DNA from: a bacterium
GTDB taxonomy: Bacteria > Patescibacteriota > Minisyncoccia > UBA6257 > JAGOQP01
Length of the DNA stretch: 44,958 nt
Assembly: GCA_021780155.1 (NCBI GenBank)
Contig: JAJXZH010000033.1
Location: forward strand, 1 to 44,958
Direction: 5' to 3'
Shown: positions 33,957 to 37,460 of the stretch, in pieces
Numbering within the stretch: the first letter of the stretch is position 1
Layout: every line of letters starts with the position of its first letter
The notes under the pieces: generated by a model
Databases searched by the model: none
Told to the model about the DNA's origin: nothing
The model's input: the letters and a program-made list of their open reading frames with translations, nothing else
Program-made: the position numbers and the translations under genes

Positions 33957-34985
33957 TTAAGCGACGTGATATAAACCGCCGTTAATTTTCTTGAAATATT
34001 TTTTGTTTTGAAGATTAAGCAAAATAGTATTTTGCTTCAGCACTCTTTGCTCGGAAACAAGTTGAACTATTTTATCAACAGGTAGCGGACCATTTTCTTT
34101 TAAAATTTTGAATATAACATCTTTGGCGGTTCCAACTTCATATCCATTTTCCTTAAGACCATAGAGTCCTCTACCAACGAGAACAAATCTCGGGTCCTTA
34201 ATCAATTCATTATGAACCGTTTGAAAATGAGCCTTTTTGGAATCAAATTTAATTTTATTTATTTCTTCGGCGATTTTTTTAAAATGCATCGGAGATTCTT
34301 TTTTCTTGAGTATTAAATACGATTTATCTCTAATAGTTTTGGGGACAATTTCCGGCCATTCGGCTAAACCAAAATCTCCGTAGGGATTGGCGGAAAAAAT
34401 TTTAGAATTCAAAATAAAATTAGCGGCGACATTGTCCGAAATAGAATGACTTCTAACGGTTTGATAAAAAAGTTCATCAAATTTTTTCTTGGAAATAATT
34501 TCTTCTTTTTTGTTTTTTAAACTTTTGGCAACCTTGGAGATGAATTCTTTGTTTGATTTTAAATTTTCCGAAGAAATATACCAAAAAGAATAAAACTCTC
34601 TGTTTTCTGGAAAAAGAGTTGGAGATTTAAATATTGTAAACAAAAGTTCTACCTCCGAAGATTTAAGATTATTATCCGAAAGAACAAATTTTAAATCTTG
34701 AAACAACAAATCGGCTCGCCTCACTCCTCCAAGATTTTTTATGTGATTCAAAGATTTCTGATAAATTAATTTAATATCTTTATTGTTTTCGGACATTTTC
34801 AAAAGAGAACGCAAGGCCGATGTTTCTATCTGACGAATCCTTTCTCTGGTAATTCCATATCTGACACCCAAAGCGGCTAAAGTTTTTGGCTTGCTCTCAA
34901 AAAGCCCAAAACGTTGGGTAATGATTTCTTTCTGGCGCTTAGAAAGACTTGTTATTAAATTGTTTAATATATCTTTTAGAAACAT
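33957..34985 (-). CDS. Sigma-70 region 4-like HTH fused to C-terminal HARE-HTH-like domain
   Basis: LSKRQKEIITQRFGLFESKPKTLAALGVRYGITRERIRQIETSALRSL; MHFKKIAEEINKIKFDSKKAHFQTVHNELIKDPRFVLVGRGLYGLKE. Confidence 0.8.
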   Translation of the reverse strand: MFLKDILNNLITSLSKRQKEIITQRFGLFESKPKTLAALGVRYGITRERIRQIETSALRSLLKMSENNKDIKLIYQKSLNHIKNLGGVRRADLLFQDLKFVLSDNNLKSSEVELLFTIFKSPTLFPENREFYSFWYISSENLKSNKEFISKVAKSLKNKKEEIISKKKFDELFYQTVRSHSISDNVAANFILNSKIFSANPYGDFGLAEWPEIVPKTIRDKSYLILKKKESPMHFKKIAEEINKIKFDSKKAHFQTVHNELIKDPRFVLVGRGLYGLKENGYEVGTAKDVIFKILKENGPLPVDKIVQLVSEQRVLKQNTILLNLQNKKYFKKINGGLYHVA

Positions 34986-37143: not shown

Positions 37144-37151
37144 TAAAAATA

Positions 37152-37179
37152 ATATTATCACAAAAAATAACGATTGCAA
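37152..37179 (-). promoter_or_regulatory. Putative sigma70-type promoter for secDF
   Basis: Minus strand TTGCAA - 16 nt - TAATAT, just upstream of the secD start. Confidence 0.5.
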
Positions 37180-37189
37180 GTTTATAAAA

Positions 37190-37425
37190 AATGGGATGCG
37201 CTGCAAGCGCATCCCTTTATGGTTCGTCCCGACAAATGTCGGGAGACAAAGTTTGGCGGGGTCTTTGTCCCCCTCGCGCTGTTGGTTTTGGAAAATCGTT
37301 TTGGATTTTTCCCGGGAAAAATCCATGGACCTGGTTGATGCCGGGGTTGATCCTTTCCCCTTGATGATTTCCATCGCCGACAGCGGACAAAGATGGAGGC
37401 AAAGACCCCACACTGCAAGTTTCTG
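37190..37425 (-). ncRNA. Candidate structured non-coding RNA of unknown family
   Basis: Closing stem GGGGTCTTTG/CAAAGACCCC (10 bp), inner CCTC/GAGG and CGCTGT/ACAGCG, local hairpins including GGATTTTTCCCGGGAAAAATCC and TCCCGACATTTGTCGGGA, terminal hairpin plus T tract, promoter-like TTGACT-17-TAAAAA upstream. Confidence 0.65.
37193..37215 (-). terminator. Intrinsic terminator of the candidate ncRNA
   Basis: Minus strand GGGATGCGC-TTGCA-GCGCATCCC-ATTTTTTATAA. Confidence 0.85.
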
Positions 37426-37431
37426 ATAAAG

Positions 37432-37460
37432 TTTTTAACACGCGACAAGTTTAAAGTCAA
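37432..37460 (-). promoter_or_regulatory. Putative promoter of candidate ncRNA
   Basis: Minus strand TTGACT - 17 nt - TAAAAA located ~7 nt before the inferred 5' end. Confidence 0.5.

Follow-up and report, generated by a model that had tools for sequence, protein, structure and literature searches.

A probable structured noncoding RNA between the VKOR gene and secD in two species of a Parcubacteria-type genus

Introduction

What occupies the short interval that separates a VKOR gene from secD in the compact genome G000? The interval could encode an RNA of its own, act as a leader of the secD-secF transcript, extend the SecD protein, or derive from a mobile element. The source genome is 708 kb long and estimated to be 99.7% complete, and the window, meaning the whole 44,958-nt stretch analyzed here, is its contig 35. 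Small size and the lack of SRP suggest a genome of CPR/Parcubacteria type. On the minus strand, Pfam domains give the gene order ribonucleotide reductase, VKOR, the element studied here, secD, and secF.

An original prediction, made from the sequence alone, favored an uncharacterised structured noncoding RNA. This is supported here by a diverged homologue, selective constraint, some compensatory changes, the lack of a conserved reading frame, and the lack of an Rfam match. We consider it probable that the locus encodes a structured RNA of ~235-240 nt that is noncoding and transcribed independently, forming its own unit between VKOR and secD. The family appears to be new, very narrow, and restricted to one genus, and is ordinary in kind. 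A search of the literature on noncoding RNAs of tiny-genome CPR bacteria returned next to nothing.

Results

Sequence features and predicted fold

All of the motifs reported previously were found, at or near the positions given for them. The 10-bp closing stem pairs perfectly (GGGGTCTTTG at 37258-37267 with CAAAGACCCC at 37400-37409, plus strand), and the CCTC/GAGG and CGCTGT/ACAGCG pairs lie inside it. The palindrome is also present, though its length is 24 nt rather than 22 once the outer T/A is counted. On the minus strand, TTGACT (37460-37455) and TAAAAA (37437-37432) are separated by the described 17-nt spacer, and the body is followed by a terminator, with a stem at 37215-37193 and then TTTTTT (Table 1). 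As had been claimed, the RNA body is richer in GC (~52%) than its flanks, which have 24-35% toward VKOR and 27-35% immediately ahead of secD; the exception is the first part of the secD coding sequence, which reaches 50% GC.

Table 1. Features of the VKOR-secD interval, with coordinates in the window
Feature	Coordinates	Strand	Description and evidence
RNA body, 152 nt	37258..37409	-	P1 closing stem, P2 inner stem, conserved apical region with several predicted hairpins; fold z, G002 homologue
Putative promoter of RNA unit, TTGACT-17-TAAAAA	37432..37460	-	Sequence; -35 and spacing kept in G002
P1 5' arm GGGGUCUUUG	37400..37409	-	Partner of 37258-37267; one U-A pair replaced by C-G in G002
P1 3' arm CAAAGACCCC	37258..37267	-	Pairs with 37400-37409
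Most conserved stretch GGAAAUCAUCAAGGGGAAAGGAUCAACCCCGGCAUCAA	37335..37372	-	G002 alignment: 1 change in 38 nt
Perfect 24-nt palindrome UGGAUUUUUCCCGGGAAAAAUCCA, predicted hairpin	37302..37325	-	Invariant in G002
Intrinsic terminator GGGATGCGCTTGCAGCGCATCCC-ATTTTTT	37187..37215	-	Kept in G002 with C-G to U-A stem change
Separate secD promoter-like region, TTGCAA-16-TAATAT, TGTG before -10	37144..37186	-	Downstream of terminator; 97.7% identical in G002; similar elements before secD in G001

A 256-nt minus-strand segment folded with a minimum free energy (MFE) of -99.3 kcal/mol, against -71.1 +/- 5.2 kcal/mol for dinucleotide shuffles (z -5.45), and 0 of 200 shuffles were as good. The plus strand folds about equally well (z -5.28), which a long inverted repeat would be expected to do. 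Within the most conserved stretch AUCAA occurs three times, for the most part in segments predicted to be looped or unpaired. As a motif, the promoter of the RNA unit is weak, with a TAAAAA that has no final T, and promoter-like sites are no more frequent in the region than in shuffles. Its counterpart in the congener G002 reads TTGACT-17-TAATAT, with the same -35 and 17-nt spacing. The linker between body and terminator holds a hairpin at 37227-37244 (TCCCGACA/TGTCGGGA) that is missing from G002. Many genomes of the order contain short matches to this hairpin, which suggests a dispersed palindromic repeat.

A homologue in a second species under selective constraint

Searching 61 relatives at the DNA level gave one strong match, in G002, at the same site between the same two genes. 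The RNA is therefore not confined to the immediate strain, if narrowly so: one other species carries it. The two RNA bodies align without gaps and differ by 18 substitutions in 152 nt (11.8%). This is lower than in the flanking noncoding DNA (40 of 98 positions changed, 41%; p 2e-7) and lower than at the fourfold-degenerate sites of secD, secF, and VKOR (127 of 325 changed, 39%; p 3e-10), from which we conclude that strong purifying selection acts on the body. Outside the body, identity to G002 varies widely by segment, at 67% in the upstream spacer, 47% in the linker, 83% in the terminator, and 98% in the secD promoter region. The predicted fold has kept its strength, at -63.4 kcal/mol for the G002 sequence and -62.4 kcal/mol for that of G000. 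Random mutants carrying the same substitutions averaged -53.7 kcal/mol, and the real G002 sequence was better than most of them (P 0.04).

None of the three minus-strand frames of G000 is interrupted by a stop within the body, which accounts for the apparent N-terminal extension of SecD. The original prediction had dismissed that extension, and G002 bears this out, as the frame there is both stopped and shifted. Each of the three minus-strand frames of G002 has a stop inside the body, the linker contains indels, and substitutions between the two species are spread over all three codon positions. These stops and the spread of substitutions rule out a conserved protein or any other conserved open reading frame (ORF) on this strand. 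The body thus combines sequence constraint with the lack of a conserved ORF, the pattern of an independent structured noncoding RNA gene. A stop-poor structured RNA with an open frame can pass for an N-terminal extension of SecD.

Base-pair evidence and choice of strand

All 50 of 50 pairs hold in both species, in a structure that was itself derived from both sequences; in a slid control, 39-62% of cells were paired. Pairs changed on both sides were found in P1 (body positions 9-144, U-A/C-G) and in P2 (body positions 27-131, C-G/U-A), and the terminator stem contributes one more compensatory change between G000 and G002 (C-G/U-A). Two further body pairs show one-sided changes, G-U/G-C or U-G/C-G exchanges that preserve legal pairing on the minus strand but not on the plus strand. 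As column shuffles equaled the observed body pair-change counts in 129 of 500 cases, and covariation is minimal with two sequences, the compensatory changes are only suggestive of a conserved fold.

With the structure predicted from each species singly, the substitutions of the other species break fewer pairs than random ones do, by a marginal amount for the minus strand (P 0.05 and 0.07) and to no lesser degree for the plus strand (P 0.07 and 0.007). Because the plus-strand values are no weaker, pair statistics alone do not choose the strand; the terminator T-tract and the G-U-type pair changes favor the minus strand. The two species' MFE structures fold differently at the apical junction. 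P1 and P2 are the reliable parts of the predicted structure.

Candidate structured RNAs from comparative genomics have been recognized in the same manner as the RNA proposed here, by a conserved fold in an intergenic region that shows compensatory changes but lacks an ORF (Weinberg et al. 2010, PMC2864571). Those candidates rest on sets of homologues, in contrast to the two sequences available here.

Relationship to secD and secF

The main competing explanation is that the element is a cis-acting secD-secF leader, in which a ligand, a protein, or the movement of ribosomes decides whether the terminator forms and thereby sets secDF expression. We regard this as unlikely. The element does lie on the same strand directly upstream of secD, with the terminator ~45 nt before the ATG, and secDF has upstream regulators elsewhere, but these are arrest peptides (PMC7897499). 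Like the element, VemP and other Sec-related arrest peptides are found upstream of protein-localization genes including secDF (PMC7897499, PMC10987492). They are, however, translated, whereas the element has no conserved upstream ORF that could encode such a peptide, and it is parted from secD by the terminator and a second promoter-like segment. That segment, which lies between terminator and start codon, is more conserved and has a counterpart in the RNA-less congener G001. A terminator/antiterminator switch was also sought, and the strongest duplex between the body and the 5' arm of the terminator did not surpass those formed by shuffles (P 0.63 and 0.85).

Because secD has a conserved promoter-like segment of its own downstream of the terminator, an RNA with its own unit, acting in trans, is favored over a leader. 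The unit would comprise the 152-nt folded body, the linker, and the terminator, and would end ahead of the secD promoter-like segment. Since that segment has its counterpart in G001, secD transcription would not depend on the RNA. Both transcription of the RNA unit and its action in trans are what we infer from this arrangement.

Distribution and origin

A covariance model built from the two sequences gave no further match in 244 genomes of the order, in 384 genomes sampled from the class, or, under laxer filters, in the 13 genomes of the family; such a model is narrow and was run on the large sets with strict filters, which may have passed over distant homologues. The third congener, G001, yielded no homologue; a full-length weak model match there (18 bits) was rejected, as it falls inside a P-type ATPase-like gene. 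A gapped pattern run over genome contigs hit at least 115 stretches, and among the 80 matches listed the model confirmed G002 alone. In viral contigs there were 88 pattern matches, with no model match worth following, and two longer patterns gave zero matches; blastn against phages and plasmids gave none either. The congener G001 and the family members G003 and G005 all carry secD after a VKOR-like gene, the two separated by a short spacer that does not contain the element. As these relatives have the same gene order, the simplest account is a gain, and the element was probably acquired between VKOR and secD in the common ancestor of G000 and G002. With other relatives lacking it, the element has no broad history of selection behind it.

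A gained element could be a MITE-like small mobile element, or what is left of one, with P1 as terminal inverted repeats and a target duplication at its flanks, a reading that we find distinctly improbable. It would fit the perfect 10-bp terminal inverted repeat, the absence of the element from G001 and other relatives with VKOR beside secD, and a 17-nt direct repeat (82%) at 37175-37191 and 37414-37430 that brackets the unit and whose quality and spacing are reached in ~1% of shuffles. That repeat may be a trace of the unit's insertion, but it is poor in G002. Copies elsewhere were looked for and lent no support: there is no second copy in G000 or its relatives, and the terminal repeat recurs only at about the rate of a reversed control pattern. 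The loops and junction are, moreover, under purifying selection rather than drifting.

Known RNA families and the missing SRP

No Rfam family fits the element at gathering or permissive thresholds, the check proposed when the RNA was first suggested. Permissive matches were chance-level sRNAs, mostly on the terminator or flanks, and the best of all was on the plus strand (E 0.009; 30.8 bits against a cut-off of 228.9). The earlier exclusions of the housekeeping RNAs also held. ARAGORN finds no tmRNA, with its tRNA-like domain and tag ORF, in the window, and RF00023 has no Rfam match on the reading strand; RNase P RNA (RF00010) has no match at the locus, the genome's copy being at G000:C30:9237-9666. 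That copy scores 92.6 bits, under the Rfam cut-off of 100, and with an E of 2e-29 is diverged but clear. The conserved, Ffh-binding part of SRP RNA is its domain IV, and no covariance-model match (RF00169, RF01854) with domain IV was found at the locus.

6S RNA associates with the holoenzyme of RNA polymerase and serves as a template for product RNAs. The 6S-like role that had been entertained finds no backing, with no match to the RF00013 model, in a search that detects 5 of 14 known genomes in its control, and with a predicted fold ending in a several-hairpin junction instead of a single bulged rod. The element resembles 6S RNA in being single-copy and intergenic, in its similar length, and in its long closing stem, and differs from it in the missing model match, the several-hairpin apex, and its confinement to two species.

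The Ffh M domain (PF02978) is absent from G000 and from 40 of 41 genomes, with 14 of 14 controls positive, and G008 is the only one of the 41 with Ffh. A small SRP RNA was found in none of the 41 (G000 and 40 relatives). Loss of SRP in Parcubacteria was published by Nelson and Stegen (2015, PMC4508563), so its absence here is not new. A role for the element in replacing SRP has no support in a genome without Ffh. It is very improbable that the element is one of the housekeeping RNAs (6S, SRP, RNase P, or tmRNA) in a much diverged form: Rfam detects neither 6S nor SRP RNA in the genome, and the long closed stem and size are roughly right for 6S, but the models of all four go unmatched on the reading strand even at E 10, the RNase P RNA sits on contig C30, there is no SRP to join with Ffh missing, and, unlike a housekeeping RNA, the element is not found in relatives.

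Discussion

Gain of a GC-rich, strongly constrained RNA in a compact genome implies a useful function. In the independent RNA proposed here, the long P1/P2 stem would hold the RNA ends together, and the apical junction and loops, with their three AUCAA copies, may form a surface that touches protein or target RNAs; these loops are the candidates for contact because the most strongly kept sequence lies there. The most likely role of the RNA is to bind a protein or to act as a base-pairing regulator. More tentatively, and on balance doubtfully, the element could represent a new class of structured RNA that acts in trans and arose recently in a Parcubacteria-type genus without SRP, with a conserved junction for binding protein or target RNAs (three AUCAA), possibly tied to protein export through its position between VKOR and secDF. 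The protein adjoining secF (33957-34985, minus strand) has a Sigma70 region 4 domain joined to a HARE-HTH domain.
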